From assembly GCF_041821025.1 (NCBI RefSeq), contig NZ_JBGUAY010000006.1, positions 1-64,000 of the forward strand: a stretch of DNA of 64,000 nt, in the 5' to 3' direction. This document shows positions 31,974-54,162 of the stretch, piece by piece. Origin of the DNA: Egicoccus sp. AB-alg6-2. Its GTDB lineage: Bacteria > Actinomycetota > Nitriliruptoria > Nitriliruptorales > Nitriliruptoraceae. The notes below the pieces were generated by a model. That model had not been told where the DNA came from, did not search any database, and saw only the letters and a program-made list of their open reading frames with translations. The position numbers were made by a program, and so were the translations under genes. The stretch's first letter is position 1. Each line of letters opens with the position of its first letter.

Positions 31974-32265
31974 CCACTTTCGGCACGGGGAACGAAACCG
32001 GGCGGTAGGCCCCGCGGCCAGGGCCGACGAGGTCCCCCCTTTCGGCACCGGGCACGAAACCGGGCGGTAGGCCCCGCGGCCAGCGCCGACGAGGTGCCCA
32101 CTTGCAACACTGGGAACGAAACCGGGCGGTAGGCCCGCGGCCAGGGCCGACGAGGTGCCCACTTTCGGCACGGGGAACGAAACCGGGCGGTAGGCCCCGC
32201 GGCCAGGGCCGACGAGATGTCCACATTCGGCACGGGGCACGAAACCGGGCGGTAGGCCCGGCGGG
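31974..32265. repeat. 62-bp repeat array C (five units)
   Basis: Units begin at 31974, 32036, 32098, 32159 and 32221. Each starts CCACTTTCGGCAC or a close variant, then GGGGAACGAAACC, then a ~37-base GC-rich linker (GGGCGGTAGGCCCCGCGGCC and so on). TTTCG and CGAAA form a dyad separated by ten bases. Unit 3 has a mutated left arm (CTTGCAACAC). Linkers are nearly identical between units. The array fills most of the 453-base gap between the FliL-like gene and the second subtilase; no gene is seen there. Confidence 0.85.
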
Positions 32266-42504: not shown

Positions 42505-43728
42505 ATGACCAAGCCGTCGGAAGAGTTGCTGCCGCTGGATCTGCGTCAGCCGCTGCCGCGTGCCGACGCGGCCCCGCAGGTCCCCGACGGTTGGGAGCCG
42601 ATGGCCCGGCTCGCCGCCGACGTCCTGGCGCGGCTCGGTCCGCTCGTCGACCGGATCACCGACTGCATCCTCGAGGAGATCCCGACCTACCGCAGCGGGT
42701 TGGTGCCGCGCCGTGACCTGCACGGCTCCGTGCTCCGCAACATCGAGGCGACCCTCGGCGGGCTCGCCGAGCACCGTCCGCCGCGCCCCGACGAACTGGC
42801 CGTCCGCAGCGAACTGGGGACCCGCCGCGCCCTGCAGGGCATGCCGGTCGATGCGCTGATCCAGGCCTACCACGTGGGCTACCGCGAGCTGTGGCTCGCC
42901 CTGGTCGACGCCGTGCCCGCCGACCAGCCCGGAACCGCTACGCAGCTGCTGACGACGGCGACGCTGGTGTGGCAGTGGGTCCACGAGGTCACCGACGCCC
43001 TGGCCGACGCGCACGCCTCCACGGTGCGCTCGATCGAGGCCCGGGCGGTCGGCGCCCGCCAGCGGTTCGTCGAACTGCTCGTCGGCGGCGACCTCGACGG
43101 TGAGGAGGTGCCCCGACTGGCCGGCTCGCTCGGGTTCGATCCGGCCGGCACCTTCGTCGTGAGCGTGCTTCGCGTCGGCGGCGACGACCTCGACGCGGTC
43201 GAACTCCAGCACGCCGTCGACGGGCTGCCCGGCCGGCACGCGGTCGTGGCGCGCGGTGCCCAGCTGGTGTGCGTCTCGCAGGGCAGCGACCCCTCCGGCG
43301 TGCGCGCCGCCGTCCGCGGGATCTTCCCCGGCGCCGCGCTGGCGCTCGGCTCGCCACGCGCCGGGTTGCGCGGCGCCCGCGCCTCGCTGACCGACGCCGA
43401 ACTCACGCTCACGGTCACCGAGGACGGGACCACCTCGACGTTCGAGGACGCCTGGCTGTGGGCGACCCTGACCGGTGCGGCCGAGCGGCTGGACCCGCTG
43501 CTGACCGACGGGGTCGACGCCGCCGCCCGCCACCCCCACCTCGCCGAGGCCGTCCGCGCCTTCGCCGACGCCGGATTCAGCGTGAGCCAAGCCGGGCGCG
43601 AGCTGTCGCTGCACGCCAACACCGTCGCCTACCGCCTCGACCGCTGGGCCGAGCTCACCGGCTGGGACCCCCGCACCTTCGCCGGCCTGTCCCGCTCCCT
43701 CGCCGCCCTCCGCCTCGGCCGCCCCTGA
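42505..43728 (+). CDS. PucR/CdaR-type transcriptional regulator
   Basis: 407 residues from ATG 42505, with GAGGCGGG upstream. The N-terminal ~160 residues are helical and could be a RsbRD-like sensory domain (PMARLAADVLARLGPLVDRI, QGMPVDALIQAYHVGYRELW). A degenerate GGDEF-like region (about 190-300) resembles the CdaR central domain. The C-terminal PucR HTH is clear (AFADAGFSVSQAGRELSLHANTVAYRLDRW). It is divergent from livF, so it probably regulates the Liv/FadD operon in response to its substrate. Confidence 0.88.
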   Translation: MTKPSEELLPLDLRQPLPRADAAPQVPDGWEPMARLAADVLARLGPLVDRITDCILEEIPTYRSGLVPRRDLHGSVLRNIEATLGGLAEHRPPRPDELAVRSELGTRRALQGMPVDALIQAYHVGYRELWLALVDAVPADQPGTATQLLTTATLVWQWVHEVTDALADAHASTVRSIEARAVGARQRFVELLVGGDLDGEEVPRLAGSLGFDPAGTFVVSVLRVGGDDLDAVELQHAVDGLPGRHAVVARGAQLVCVSQGSDPSGVRAAVRGIFPGAALALGSPRAGLRGARASLTDAELTLTVTEDGTTSTFEDAWLWATLTGAAERLDPLLTDGVDAAARHPHLAEAVRAFADAGFSVSQAGRELSLHANTVAYRLDRWAELTGWDPRTFAGLSRSLAALRLGRP

Positions 43729-43745
43729 CCCGCCAGCCCCCGCCG

Positions 43746-44042
43746 CCACGTTCGTGCCGGGACACGAAGGGTGGCCAGAGACCCGGCCGGCCCGAACCCG
43801 CCTCACCTCCACTTTCGTGCCCGGAAGCGAAAGATGGCCGCCGCCGGCCGGCCCGCGCCTGCCTCGCCGTCCACTTTCGTGCCGGGAAGCGAAAGGTGGC
43901 TGCCGCCGGCCGGCCGCGACACACCTCGCTCCCCACTTTCGTGGCGGGACACGAAAGGTGGCTGCCGCCGGCGGGCCCGCGCCTGGCTCGCCGTCCACAT
44001 TCGTGCCCGGAAGCGAAAGGTGGCTGCCGCCGGCCGGCCCTT
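43746..44042. repeat. 62-bp repeat array D (five units)
   Basis: Units start at 43746, 43809, 43871, 43933 and 43995. Each begins CCACTTTCGTGCCGGGAAGC and continues GAAAGGTGG, a long dyad (CCACTTTCG with CGAAAGGTGG), followed by ~35 bases rich in GCCGCCGGCCGG. Substitutions in one arm of the hairpin are common (for example CCACGTTCG, CCACATTCG). It occupies the 398-base gap between the PucR-like gene and the second DUF559-like gene. No coding frame here looks real. Confidence 0.9.
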
Positions 44043-44126
44043 GCGCATCTGCGATGAGGGGCGTTGTCCACAGCTGCGTCGAGATTCGGGCGGCGCTGGC
44101 GAGTGCGCGGGTCGAGACTCCGCCGC

Positions 44127-45053
44127 ATGTTGCCCGAACCCGCACTGCAACTCGCCGAGAACCAACTCGGCGTGATCGCTCGGTACCAGCTGTTGCAGCA
44201 CATGGACCGCCACCGGGCGCAGCACCTGTGCCGTTGCGGCTACCTCCATCCGATCCAGCGCGGCGTGTACCGCGTCCGGGGTGGCGCGGCGTTGCCGGAC
44301 CAGGCGCCGATCGCCGCCGCGCTCCGGGCGCGCAACGGCCAGGTCACCGGCCCGTTCGTCCTCAGCCGCCTGCGCGTGGACGGCTTCGAGCCGGATGCGC
44401 CGTTCGAGGTGTTAAAGCGACCTGCGCGGAGACTCCGCCACGTCGACTTCGCCTGGCGTGGGAGCGCGGACTACGACCGCCCAGGCAGCCATCTGGGCGA
44501 CGTACGGCTCGCGAGCCCCGTCGACGCCCTGGTCGACAGCGGCAGACACCGGGAGCTGCTCGGCGACCGGAAACTCCGCCTCGCCTACGACCAGCTGCGG
44601 TGGCGCAAGCTCATCAACGCCGACCGGTTCGCCGACCACCTCGACGCCCTTCCGGCCGACGACCCCGGCGTGGTGGGGCTGCAGCAGGCGCTGGGGTTGG
44701 CCGACCTGCGCTCCGAGGCGGAGGGTGAACGCCGCATGGGCGAGATCATGCAGGCGTTCCGCCCCGCTCCCGAGGCCCAGGTGTGGGTCCTGGCGGGCCG
44801 GCGGGTCGACTGGTACTTCCGCGACCTGAAACTGGCCCTGGAGTACCACGGCAGTGTCGACCACGGCTGGCGCGACCGGCAGCGCGCGGACGCGCAGCGC
44901 GAGGGCGAGCTCGCCGGGGCGGGGATACGCGTCGAGGCGTTCACCTACGCGGATCTCACGCCGGTCGACGACCTGCTGGCCCGCCTCGCCGGCCTCCTCA
45001 CCCTCCGGGCTCGCGAACTCGGCACGACGGCCCCGGTGTACATGGCCTCCTGA
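44127..45053 (+). CDS. AbiEi-like/DUF559 (Vsr-type endonuclease fold) protein 2
   Basis: 308 residues from ATG 44127 (weak ribosome binding site). The N-terminus (AENQLGVIARYQLLQH, LCRCGYLHPIQRGVYRVRG) matches the winged-helix start of AbiEi-type antitoxin/DUF559 proteins. The C-terminus keeps the nuclease-like pattern GRRVDWYFRDLKLALEYHGSVDH and DAQREGELAGAGIRVEAF. The catalytic-like EYHG replaces the more usual EYDG, so activity is uncertain. No toxin partner is adjacent. Five-unit repeat arrays D and E flank it immediately on both sides. A paralogue with its own palindromic repeats lies at 10220-11131. Confidence 0.78.
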   Translation: MLPEPALQLAENQLGVIARYQLLQHMDRHRAQHLCRCGYLHPIQRGVYRVRGGAALPDQAPIAAALRARNGQVTGPFVLSRLRVDGFEPDAPFEVLKRPARRLRHVDFAWRGSADYDRPGSHLGDVRLASPVDALVDSGRHRELLGDRKLRLAYDQLRWRKLINADRFADHLDALPADDPGVVGLQQALGLADLRSEAEGERRMGEIMQAFRPAPEAQVWVLAGRRVDWYFRDLKLALEYHGSVDHGWRDRQRADAQREGELAGAGIRVEAFTYADLTPVDDLLARLAGLLTLRARELGTTAPVYMAS

Positions 45054-45055
45054 GC

Positions 45056-45345
45056 CCACGTTCGGCTCCCGGCACGAACGTTGCACCGGCCGCACCCGCG
45101 CCGACGACCGGGCGGTCCACTTTCGGCGCCCGGCACGAAAGTTGCACCGGCCGGCACCCGCACCGACGGCCTGGCGGTCCACGTTCGGCGCCCGGCACGA
45201 AAGTTGCACCGGCCGGCACCCGCACCGACGGCCTGCCGGTCCACTTTCGGCTCCCGGCACGAAAGTTGCACCGGCCGGCACCCGCACCGACGGCCTGCCG
45301 GTCGACTTCCGGCTCCCGGCACGAACGTTGCACCGGCCGGTAGCC
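45056..45345. repeat. 62-bp repeat array E (five units)
   Basis: Units start at 45056, 45117, 45179, 45241 and 45303, the first only two bases past the DUF559-like gene stop. Each begins CCACTTTCGGCGCCCGGCAC (or a close variant) and continues GAAAGTTGCACC, followed by a ~35-base linker (GGCCGGCACCCGCACCGACG). The TTTCG/CGAAA dyad has a ten-base spacer, as in arrays C and D. The remaining bases to the acyltransferase start hold only a ribosome binding site. Confidence 0.9.
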
Positions 45346-45442
45346 GCGCCGACGACCGCACGGGGATCGGCGGGCGATGGAGGTGGGCGGCGGGCGGTAC
45401 GGTCGCGCGCTGCTCCAGTCGTTCACAACCGGGAGTCAGTGC

Positions 45443-47533
45443 ATGACGGCGACCGCCGTCGCGGTCCACCCCGAGCGGCCCGGACACCGTCCCGACATCG
45501 AGGGACTCCGTGCCGTCGCGGTGCTGTTGGTACTGCTCTTCCACGCCGACGTTCCCGGCTTCGCCGGTGGCTACGTCGGCGTCGACGTCTTCTTCGTGCT
45601 GTCGGGCTTCCTGATCACCCGACTGCTGCTGGACGAACGCTCGCGGACCGGCACGATCCATCTGCGCGAGTTCTACGCCCGGCGGCTGCGGCGGCTGCTG
45701 CCCGCCTCCTCGCTGGTCATCGTGACGACCGTGGTCGCCGCCTGGTTCGTCGCCCCGCCGCTGCTGTTCGGACCGATCGCCACGGACGGGTTGTGGGCAG
45801 CGGGCTGGCTCGCGAACTACCGCTTCATCGGTCAGGGCCTGGACTACCTCGCGTCCGCCGGCGCGGAGTCGCCGCTGCTGCACTTCTGGTCGCTCGCGGT
45901 CGAGGAGCAGTTCTATCTGCTGTGGCCCGCGCTCATCCTGGTCGCGCTGCTCGGTCCGAACTCGCGTCTGCGCCTGCGCATCGCGGTGTTGCTGAGTGTC
46001 GTCGTCGCGGCGTCGTTGACCGCCTCGATCGTGCAGACGGCTTCCGACCCGGTCATCGCCTACTACGCGCTGCACACCCGTGCGTGGGAGCTCGCGCTGG
46101 GCGGCCTGTTGGCGATCGCCGGCCCGTTGACCGCTCGGGTGCATCCGCGCGTCGGCGTGGCCCTGGGTTGGCTCGGGCTGGTGACGCTCGTGGCCACCAG
46201 CGTCACCTACACGACGGCGACGCCGTTCCCCGGGTGGACCGCGCTCGCGCCGGTGCTGGCCACCTGTGCACTGCTCGTCGGCGGGCAGGTGGCCGACCGC
46301 CGCGGCGTCGGGCACCTGCTGCACCTCGACCCCATGCAGCGCCTGGGCCGGTGGTCGTACTCGTTGTACCTGTGGCACTGGCCGATCCTGGTCCTCGCCG
46401 AGCACGCCTCCCCCGGCGTGCTGACCGTCTGGCACAAGGTCGGCCTGCTGGGTGTGACCGTGGCGGTGTCGGCGCTGACGTACCGGCTCGTCGAGGACCC
46501 GATCCGCCGGTCGAAGTGGCTGTCGGCACGCCCCGCCCGGAGCATCGGTGGGGGCCTCGGTCTGGCGGCGACGGTGGTCGTCGCCATGGTCGCGGTTCCG
46601 CTCGTCGCCCCCGGCCTCGGAGGCTCGGGCGGTTCGATCGAGGCCGGTGACGTCGCCGACCCGGACCGCCTCGACGCCGTCCTGGCCGCCTCGGTGGGCG
46701 CCGCACTGCTGCCCGCGTCGCTGAACCCGCCGCTGGAGCAGGCACGGGAGGTGCAGCCAGCGGTCTACGGCGACGACTGCTTCCTCGGCTTCGACGACGA
46801 GCGCACCCCCGACGCGTGCGCCTACGGGCCGGACGACGACCAACCCCTGCGCTCCGTGGTCCTCTTCGGCGACTCGCACGCCGCCCACTGGTTTCCGCCG
46901 CTGCACGAGCTGACGGTCGGGCGCGGCTGGGGCCTCGTCCCGCTGGTCAAGGCGAGCTGCCCGTCGATGGACGTCCCCGTCTTCCGCAACGGCTCCCGCT
47001 ACGACGCGTGCGACGCGTGGCGCGAGAACAGCGTGCAACGCATCGAGGAACTGGCGCCCGACCTGATCGTGCTGGCCAACGCGCGCGCCTATGACGCGGT
47101 CGACGACGACGGCAACGAACTCGACGGCGGACGCGAGCCGTTCCAGGGCGCGGGCCTGGCGCGGATGATCCAGCGGCTCCAGGCGCTGCTGCCGGAGACC
47201 GACATCGCGGTGATCGGCACGACCCCGCACCCGCCCTCAGACACGCCGGTGTGCCTCTCCGAACGACTCGAGGACATCGCGTCGTGCGCCGGCCAGCGGG
47301 ACCAGATGCTGGCCGTCGACCTGCTCGCGACCCAGCAACAGGTCGCGGAGTCGGCGGGCGCCATCTTCGTCGACCCCTCGGCCTGGATGTGTCACAACGG
47401 CACCTGTCCGGTCGTGATCGCCGACTTCTTGGTCTACAACGACGGCAGCCACCTCGCGCCGCCGTTCACGTTGTGGCTGCGGCCGCTGCTCGAAGACGCG
47501 CTGTTGCGCGAGTCGGCGCTGCCCGCCCCGTGA
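45443..47533 (+). CDS. Acyltransferase-3 / SGNH fusion (OafA-like)
   Basis: 696 residues from ATG 45443, with GGGAG eight bases upstream; an in-frame ATG at 45377 lacks such a site. The N-terminal ~400 residues form an acyltransferase-3 domain with about ten transmembrane helices, catalytic His34 and Arg23 (GLRAVAVLLVLLFHAD), and GYVGVDVFFVLSGFLITRLL. The C-terminal ~240 residues form an extracytoplasmic SGNH domain: VVLFGDSHAAHWFPPL (Ser near 475), and the DxxH-like NDGSHLAPP near 668. Six Cys in this half suggest disulfides. Such proteins O-acylate peptidoglycan, teichoic acid or exopolysaccharide; the target is unknown. Confidence 0.93.
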   Translation: MTATAVAVHPERPGHRPDIEGLRAVAVLLVLLFHADVPGFAGGYVGVDVFFVLSGFLITRLLLDERSRTGTIHLREFYARRLRRLLPASSLVIVTTVVAAWFVAPPLLFGPIATDGLWAAGWLANYRFIGQGLDYLASAGAESPLLHFWSLAVEEQFYLLWPALILVALLGPNSRLRLRIAVLLSVVVAASLTASIVQTASDPVIAYYALHTRAWELALGGLLAIAGPLTARVHPRVGVALGWLGLVTLVATSVTYTTATPFPGWTALAPVLATCALLVGGQVADRRGVGHLLHLDPMQRLGRWSYSLYLWHWPILVLAEHASPGVLTVWHKVGLLGVTVAVSALTYRLVEDPIRRSKWLSARPARSIGGGLGLAATVVVAMVAVPLVAPGLGGSGGSIEAGDVADPDRLDAVLAASVGAALLPASLNPPLEQAREVQPAVYGDDCFLGFDDERTPDACAYGPDDDQPLRSVVLFGDSHAAHWFPPLHELTVGRGWGLVPLVKASCPSMDVPVFRNGSRYDACDAWRENSVQRIEELAPDLIVLANARAYDAVDDDGNELDGGREPFQGAGLARMIQRLQALLPETDIAVIGTTPHPPSDTPVCLSERLEDIASCAGQRDQMLAVDLLATQQQVAESAGAIFVDPSAWMCHNGTCPVVIADFLVYNDGSHLAPPFTLWLRPLLEDALLRESALPAP

Positions 47534-52323: not shown

Positions 52324-54162
52324 GTGCCACGTCGTCGCCCCGCCCGCTCCCGCGGCGTCCTCGGACTCGTCGCCGCCCTGGTCGGACTGTCCGTCGGCCC
52401 GTCCGGTGCGTTCGCCGAGACACCGAACGACGCCACCACGCCCACGCTGGAGTCGATGCAGCTGGCGTCGGCGACGACGCTGCACCCGCTCCAACGGCTC
52501 GAGGTCGCCTACCGGGCCAGCGATGTCGGGAGCGGCGTCCGGAGCGCGGCGTTCGTGTTCACCTCCGAACTCGGTCACGAGACGGCGGCCGTCGCGAGCG
52601 GTACGGCCGCCGCGACCGGGCCGGCGCGGGTGCAACTCCTGCCAGGCCAGCCCGGCGGCACCTACCGGCTCACGACGGTCAGCCTGACGGACGCGGCCGG
52701 GAACACCGTCGTCTACGAACGCGACGGCCGTGCCTGGTCGACGCCCTCCGGCGCCGTCGGACCGACGCGGCACACCCTGCGGTTCGCGGACCTCGACGTC
52801 ACGTACGTCAACCCCGGCAGCGACACGACCGCTCCCGAGCTGCAGGCGCTCACGCGCACCACGCCCGAGCGGGTGCGTCCGGGAGATCCGCTCAGCGTGT
52901 CGTACACCGCGATCGACACCCAGACCGGCGTCAACGGGGTCGTCGTCCTGTACGAGAACGCCGTCGGTCGCGCCCACCACCTCGACGTCTCGGGCCCGGC
53001 CGCGGCGCACGGACCCGTCCGCGGTGTCGTCGGCGCGGACTGGGCAGACGGCGCCTACCGGCTCGTCCAGGTCACCGTCCACGACGGACACAACCTCGCC
53101 GTCTACCTCCGGGACGGCCGGATACAGCGCAGCCCGACCGGTCTCGCCGGCCCCACCACCCATGCGCTGCGGTTCGCCGACGCGGACTTCACCGTGGACA
53201 ACCCGAGCGCCGACACGACCGCGCCCGACCTCACCCTCCTGCGCCTGTCCAACGGCACCGAGCGGCACCGCGGCGAGAGCCTGTGGTTCCAGGTGCGGGT
53301 CGCCGACGGGGGCAGCGGCGTCGCCCTCCTCGAGCTGACCTATGCCGACCCGCTCGGAAACGGTCGCGTCGTGCGGACGCAGAATCAGCGGGACTTCACC
53401 GCGGGGAGCCTGCACCATCCGATCCCGCAGAGTTGGCCCCACGGCTCCTACCGGCTCGAGAACGTCCGGGTCGTGGACGCCGCAGGCAACGGCGTGCACC
53501 TGCTCCGCGACGGCGGGACCCTGCTGACCCCCGCCGGCATCACCGGTCCGGCCCGCCACTCGTTGCGCCTGGCCGACCTCGACTTCCGGCTCGTGCCCCT
53601 TCCGGGGACCGAGCCGTCGCCCAGCCCGACCGCGCCGACCGCGCCGGGCGCGACGACCGGGCTGCGGGACGTCACCGGCAGCCACGCGGCATCGATCACC
53701 GCCGTCGTGCAGGCCGGGATCGCGTCGGGCTACCCGGACGGCACCTTCCGTCCCGGCGACACGGTCACGCGCGCCCAACTCGCGACCTTCCTGGCACGGG
53801 CACTGAACCTGTCGCCGGTCGCGGATCACGGCTTCACCGATGTCGGTGGTTCCCACGCCGGCAACATCGGCGCTGTCGCCCGAGCCGGCATCACCACCGG
53901 CTACCCCGACCGCACCTTCCGCCCCGACGACACCGTCACCCGGGCCCAAATGGCCAGCTTCCTCGCCCGCGCACTCGAGCTGCGGCCGGTGACCGACCAC
54001 GGCTTCACCGACGTCGCCGGTGCACACGCCGGCAACATCGGCGCCGTCGCCCGAGCCGGCATCACCACCGGCTACCCCGACCGCACCTTCCGCCCCGACG
54101 ACACCGTCACCCGGGCCCAGATGGCCAGCTTCCTCGCCCGCGCGCTCGACCTGCCGAGGTAA
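52324..54162 (+). CDS. Secreted multidomain protein with three C-terminal SLH repeats
   Basis: 612 residues from GTG 52324, with GGAGAGG just upstream. Signal peptide about 1-31 (ending GAFAET). Three ~125-residue beta-sandwich-like modules follow, each with TTAPxLxxLR...PGDPLSVSY-type openings and AAGNxVVYERDG-type ends. A Pro/Ser/Thr linker (PSPSPTAPTAPG) leads to three SLH repeats (about 440-612; HAGNIGAVARAGITTGYPDR, TFRPDDTVTRAQMASFLARA). Repeats two and three are almost identical in DNA at a 171-base period (from 53827 and 53998), so they duplicated recently. The SLH part anchors it to the wall; the modules could bind carbohydrate or other ligands. Same operon direction as the preceding gene. 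Confidence 0.88.
   Translation: MPRRRPARSRGVLGLVAALVGLSVGPSGAFAETPNDATTPTLESMQLASATTLHPLQRLEVAYRASDVGSGVRSAAFVFTSELGHETAAVASGTAAATGPARVQLLPGQPGGTYRLTTVSLTDAAGNTVVYERDGRAWSTPSGAVGPTRHTLRFADLDVTYVNPGSDTTAPELQALTRTTPERVRPGDPLSVSYTAIDTQTGVNGVVVLYENAVGRAHHLDVSGPAAAHGPVRGVVGADWADGAYRLVQVTVHDGHNLAVYLRDGRIQRSPTGLAGPTTHALRFADADFTVDNPSADTTAPDLTLLRLSNGTERHRGESLWFQVRVADGGSGVALLELTYADPLGNGRVVRTQNQRDFTAGSLHHPIPQSWPHGSYRLENVRVVDAAGNGVHLLRDGGTLLTPAGITGPARHSLRLADLDFRLVPLPGTEPSPSPTAPTAPGATTGLRDVTGSHAASITAVVQAGIASGYPDGTFRPGDTVTRAQLATFLARALNLSPVADHGFTDVGGSHAGNIGAVARAGITTGYPDRTFRPDDTVTRAQMASFLARALELRPVTDHGFTDVAGAHAGNIGAVARAGITTGYPDRTFRPDDTVTRAQMASFLARALDLPR

Follow-up and report, generated by a model that had tools for sequence, protein, structure and literature searches.

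In Egicoccus sp. AB-alg6-2, a gene for a nuclease of AbiEi-DUF559 type is flanked on both sides by arrays of phased palindromes, and we consider it probable that the gene and its arrays constitute one unit, similar to a REPtron, that combines an AbiEi DNA-binding domain and a Vsr/EDxHD nuclease in one protein. Our comparisons suggest a partnership between nuclease and repeat that is REP/RAYT-like and of which we know no earlier description. The link between gene and arrays, originally predicted from this locus, has held up on the strength of cognate palindromes in many genomes, palindromes private to individual paralogs, a homolog discovered beside an array from a blind scan, and the failure to find RAYTs in nine genomes.

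The nuclease gene and its flanking arrays

Features of the window, by which we mean the whole 64,000-nucleotide stretch of DNA analysed here, are collected in Table 1. The original prediction described two five-unit arrays with a 61-63 bp period flanking the nuclease gene, and rereading the positions and steps bore this out. It also assigned to both arrays the minus-strand motif TTTCG-N10-CGAAAGTGGAC, which most units carry exactly or as close variants, and it called the D and E linkers unrelated, in agreement with a mean identity of 0.59 versus 0.55 for shuffled linkers. The dyad type common to the two arrays is TTCG-N10-CGAA. Because its two half-sites differ, one being GTGCC-like and the other GGCTC-like, the dyad is directional; the half-site order in array E is opposite to that in array D, and the arrays face opposite ways. 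The pattern CACTTTCG-N(5-14)-CGAAAG has 5 matches in the window and 0 in 100 shuffles, and a chance origin of the gene/array layout was rejected on the basis of shuffles and control segments. A CRISPR array was rejected because linkers within arrays are mostly related, the dyads vary, and the genes adjoining the window locus are not cas. Two other tandem repeats occur elsewhere in the window, at 11272-11515 (118 bp, 2.1 copies) and 53728-54156 (171 bp, 2.5 copies).

Table 1. Coordinates of the nuclease gene and same-core arrays in the window
Feature	Position	Strand	Description
AbiEi-DUF559 type nuclease gene	44127..45053	+	308 aa, ATG start
Putative EDxHD catalytic positions	44727..44891	+	E201, D228, H246, D255 and also E239; unchanged across 21 homologs
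Array D	43746..44019	+	Five directional dyads; follows the end of the PucR-type gene and precedes the nuclease gene
Array D dyads	starts 43746, 43809, 43871, 43933, 43995		Steps 63/62/62/62
Array D unit			Each 25 bp; CCACNTTCG-N10-CGAANG
Array E	45056..45327	+	Five directional dyads; begins 3 bp past the nuclease-gene stop codon
Array E dyads	starts 45056, 45117, 45179, 45241, 45303		Steps 61/62/62/62
Third array with the same core	31974..32264	+	Five units spaced at 61-62 bp; in the intergenic gap of two convergent genes

The open reading frame of the nuclease gene extends back to a TTG at 44064, but the ATG at 44127 agrees with the starts of homologs. Its N-terminal part is AbiEi-like, with the PADLOC AbiEi profile found in 21/21 homologs, and in some homologs the C terminus matches the DUF559 or MTES_1575 profile; the window protein itself gives no Pfam match. 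Foldseek searches with an AlphaFold (AF2) model of the protein (mean pLDDT 89) retrieved AbiEi of Streptococcus agalactiae (6y8q, E 2.8e-4) and also the catalytic domain of I-Bth0305I (3r3p), to which the nuclease part has a weak profile match (E 0.019). The stretch aligned in this weak match contains E201, D228, H246 and D255. The window protein is an AbiEi-type DNA-binding part joined to a Vsr/EDxHD-type nuclease (DUF559/MTES_1575). The neighbouring genes encode a PucR-type regulator and an acyltransferase/SGNH protein, and no AbiEii (DUF1814) toxin gene was found adjoining the nuclease gene.

Private palindromes beside homologs

Homologs are present in 28 of the 61 genomes searched, that of Egicoccus sp. 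AB-alg6-2 included; profile scans of contigs gave no match with a single-protein query and seven loci with an alignment. Palindromes spaced 61-63 or 70-72 bp apart accompany many of the homologs, and the core of these palindromes differs between most genomes. An automated detector placed tandem palindromes within 450 bp of 11/22 Nitriliruptoraceae homologs versus 1/440 control segments (Fisher p 1.8e-15), and it scored 2/39 homolog loci in other families as positive. One locus (L044) had scored at a 50-bp lag, and restricting the lags to 61-63 or 72 bp gives 10/22 (p 6e-14). These counts depend on the settings of the detector, which missed arrays visible by eye: most detector-negative Nitriliruptoraceae homologs also bear spaced palindromes. 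The enrichment near this gene family that the original prediction had put forward as a check is thus present, in the form of tandem palindromes whose core sequence differs by genome.

The palindromes can be private to a single paralog. One genome (G010) carries two paralogs, one flanked by core A (26 units) and the other by core B (11 units); each core lies on both sides of its own paralog at 62 bp spacing, and is dispersed in G010; neither core occurs in any of 11 further genomes that were searched. The core of G004 is likewise both flanking and dispersed, with a variant in G019 only, and G325, from another class, has the same gene/palindrome layout with dispersed copies. Sites away from the gene occur in all of the core-searched genomes, namely our own (that of Egicoccus sp. 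AB-alg6-2), G010, G004 and G325. A further palindrome family in G010, GATGCAGTC...GACTGCATC, occurs at 61-62 bp steps (L121 10589, L221 13708) with no homolog seen adjoining. The homolog at G003:C12:107771-108679 (L041) has one in-frame TAG, yet it is flanked by arrays, and it may be decaying. At five further loci (L035, L040, L045, L046 and L048) draft contigs end about 100-200 bp from the homolog, as would be expected from repeats that break assemblies.

A blind scan led to the same association from the side of the repeats. The detector was run over 800 kb of G005, a genome at first counted as lacking the gene, and returned five clusters, including a 62-bp array at C3:30478. A relaxed profile search revealed diverged homologs in this genome, one of which directly adjoins that array, while another has a 72-bp tandem palindrome upstream. 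Since G005 was first misjudged as gene-less, absence from other genomes is provisional too. Three other G005 loci (L192 14789, L195 14608 and L200 10353) have tandem palindromes at 62, 84 and 59 bp with no known homolog adjoining, and one of these palindrome families also occurs singly after kgd (L158). In our own genome, a second homolog (L231, G000:C6:72246-72794), about 8 kb past the window, has its own compound palindrome of about 85 bp, the same on both sides; no flanking repeat was found at the third (L237, C9:45587).

Among actinobacteria more broadly, AbiEi-DUF559 proteins occur in 105/397 genomes. A repeat shared by both flanks exceeded the 99% control level at 23/70 loci (8/21 in the family, 7/10 among diverged homologs and 8/39 in the wider set), rates that are approximate because the control consisted of cross-paired flanks from three Nitriliruptoraceae genomes and not of matched genes. 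Several of these shared repeats are clear palindromes. The enrichment thus extends to other actinobacterial classes, but 31/39 homologs outside the family had no shared flanking repeat in this test.

Could the arrays instead be unrelated structural repeats, such as terminators or nucleoid sites, that lie beside the gene by chance? Many arrays in our own genome do start about 35 bp or less from a gene end, as REPs do. We nevertheless regard this explanation as very improbable, given the enrichment beside homologs over controls, the private cores of the two paralogs in G010 and the blind rediscovery beside a homolog in G005. In addition, the array units carry no T-runs, and an Rfam search of 43400-45700 returned no family at gathering score.

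Dispersed arrays, spacing and possible dyad recognition

Our own genome (3.74 Mb in 24 contigs) contains 69 dyad units in 19 arrays, the one at 31974-32264 among them, identified by a core search allowing one mismatch and by reading of the surrounding 6-kb regions; as this was a pattern search, arrays with a weaker core may have been missed. According to a crude gene finder all of the arrays are intergenic: 11 lie in gaps of co-directional genes, 5 in convergent and 3 in divergent gaps, the array at 31974, entered twice in the raw tally, being counted once. Within most arrays the linkers are related to each other and the dyads vary, and because linkers are private to each array, whole arrays were not copied between sites. 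The original prediction had held that genome-wide scatter of arrays combined with a lack of enrichment near the gene family would count against it. Half of this combination, the scatter, is what we observe (19 arrays), whereas the lack of enrichment is not.

The position of the gene itself varies among relatives, and this bears on a further explanation in which the arrays are the ends or targets of a homing or invertible cassette: they would allow the gene to move or to be inverted, and the dispersed copies would have no wider role. In many relatives the cassette sits after kgd/sucA, in either orientation, while in our own genome a different gene, with no array, comes after kgd and the cassette lies elsewhere. 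The kgd site can also occur without the cassette: G014, G018, G020, G030 and G035 have neither cassette nor tandem array there, and G005 has no gene after kgd and retains a single palindrome. None of the readable kgd sites without the cassette has a tandem array, a count that leaves out G010, G012 and G017 (kgd end misplaced) and G025 and G032 (contigs end). This variation in position, together with the resemblance of the nuclease part to the homing endonuclease I-Bth0305I, agrees with a homing cassette, but gene-less dispersed arrays outnumber those with the gene, no intron or intein host is seen at the window gene, and opposite orientations between species do not show active inversion. We therefore think this explanation quite unlikely.

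Across four genomes, 84 of 93 dyad intervals are 61-63 bp and 7 are 71-74 bp, with one of 59 and one of 92. The units from our own genome in this tally were picked partly by spacing, and unfiltered matches agree, their values of 59-60 and 65-66 stemming from mixed strand registers. Whichever linker lies between them, dyads stay 61-63 or 70-74 bp apart, and the retention of this spacing where successive linkers are unrelated suggests selection on phase. The idea that all dyads lie on one face of the helix, part of the original prediction, fits the clustering of steps at 61-63 and 71-74 bp, with none between, although a period test over all spacings picked out no single helical repeat. Its equation of 62 bp with six helical turns is close, since this length makes 5.9 turns when a turn is taken as 10.5 bp.

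Whether the dyads act as double-stranded sites or as hairpins can be judged from their variation. In a set of 65 distinct units from our own genome, pairing at most variable positions does not exceed that in shuffles and at the inner ones falls below it, with one outer pair above shuffles (p 0.0065); the variable positions of core A in G010 show no pairing excess. Invariant arms are uninformative on covariation. This lack of covariation at variable positions favours double-stranded DNA read by a protein, and protein-read half-sites appear to fit the dyads better than hairpins do. An RNA hairpin or single-stranded DNA element was rejected on the same grounds and for want of an Rfam match at threshold.

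Dyads of this kind might also be operators, with the AbiEi-like protein regulating itself and array-adjacent genes and the nuclease domain being secondary or regulatory. The promoters of AbiEi antitoxins contain inverted repeats to which these proteins bind (PMC7319586), array D occupies the region immediately 5' of the gene, and phased dyads that look protein-read would suit cooperative binding. On the other hand, arrays also occur downstream of the gene and by gene ends, with only 3/19 between divergent genes, the catalytic positions are invariant, and a genome-private core is unusual for a regulon; we consider the operator explanation unlikely.

We favour a single unit of gene and arrays, for which the following mechanism may be envisaged. 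The protein would read its own dyad as double-stranded DNA, a role that the promoter-binding of AbiEi antitoxins makes plausible for its N-terminal part, and molecules on neighbouring dyads may interact, since the dyads would share one helix face. The flanking arrays might serve autoregulation or synapsis. The nuclease could nick or cut at dyads, with repair copying the dyad of about 30 bp into other sites, and arrays may grow by local duplication of 62 bp. Under such a scheme of reading, cutting and copying, protein and palindrome would keep changing together. A bolder proposal, which we hold tentatively and at somewhat less than even confidence, is that AbiEi-DUF559 nucleases across the phylum each make and maintain their own helically phased arrays, as a second class of repeat-associated nuclease systems that evolved independently and whose protein acts as a ruler, spacing units by whole turns of about 62, 72 and possibly 82 bp.

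Relation to known repeat systems

The closest parallel in layout is with REPtrons, in which the gene for a RAYT (TnpA-REP) tyrosine transposase is accompanied by REPs (PMC2817692, PMC3733652). As in those systems, a nuclease gene is flanked on both sides by cognate palindromes that are also dispersed in the genome, other copies are intergenic near gene ends, and gene copies are repeat-specific (PMC2817692, PMC3733652). The nuclease also appears to diverge rapidly: between our own genome and G001 the kgd protein is 89% identical and the nuclease protein only 58%, which recalls the fast evolution of rayt genes (PMC2817692). Here, however, an AbiEi part joined to a Vsr/EDxHD nuclease takes the place of an HUH/Y1 transposase; dyads recur at a set distance of about 62 or 72 bp, whereas the spacing of REPs is variable; units are tandem in one direction and in fewer copies; and, unlike REPs, the variable dyad positions show no complementary changes, the one outer pair excepted. 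No HUH/Y1 tyrosine transposase (PF01797) was found in nine genomes, with the control positive in 5/14, and identity with RAYTs was rejected on this basis and because the protein matches AbiEi/DUF559. The likeness to REPs is thus one of layout, and any shared mechanism would be by analogy.

Other systems share parts of this arrangement. AbiE type IV toxin-antitoxin systems have in common with it the AbiEi N-terminal DNA-binding part and fold, but here there is no adjoining AbiEii toxin gene and the nuclease part is extra. I-Bth0305I and Vsr-like nucleases resemble it in nuclease fold and catalytic positions, whereas the window gene is free-standing and array-flanked and has a different DNA-binding part. 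TIRtrons and MITEs also place a gene between repeats that occur without the gene (PMC3733652), but there is no transposase match here, and the repeats are tandem phased dyads instead of element ends. We found no description of such a nuclease/palindrome system in the open PubMed Central literature, and its novelty is accordingly provisional.

Our findings fit into a broader question of how dispersed palindromes come to be associated with enzymes. In the literature the RAYTs are the one enzyme family linked to dispersed REP palindromes, and a large REP super-family (CGTC) has been reported without a dedicated transposase (PMC3733652). If the unit proposed here is real, a non-homologous nuclease with cognate palindromes would show that partnerships of this kind have more than one origin, and the family of AbiEi-DUF559/MTES_1575 fusion proteins, so far uncharacterised, would acquire a role. 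A set of related proteins that differ in their private dyads, in some cases two within a single genome, would then offer a test bed for studying how DNA recognition changes.
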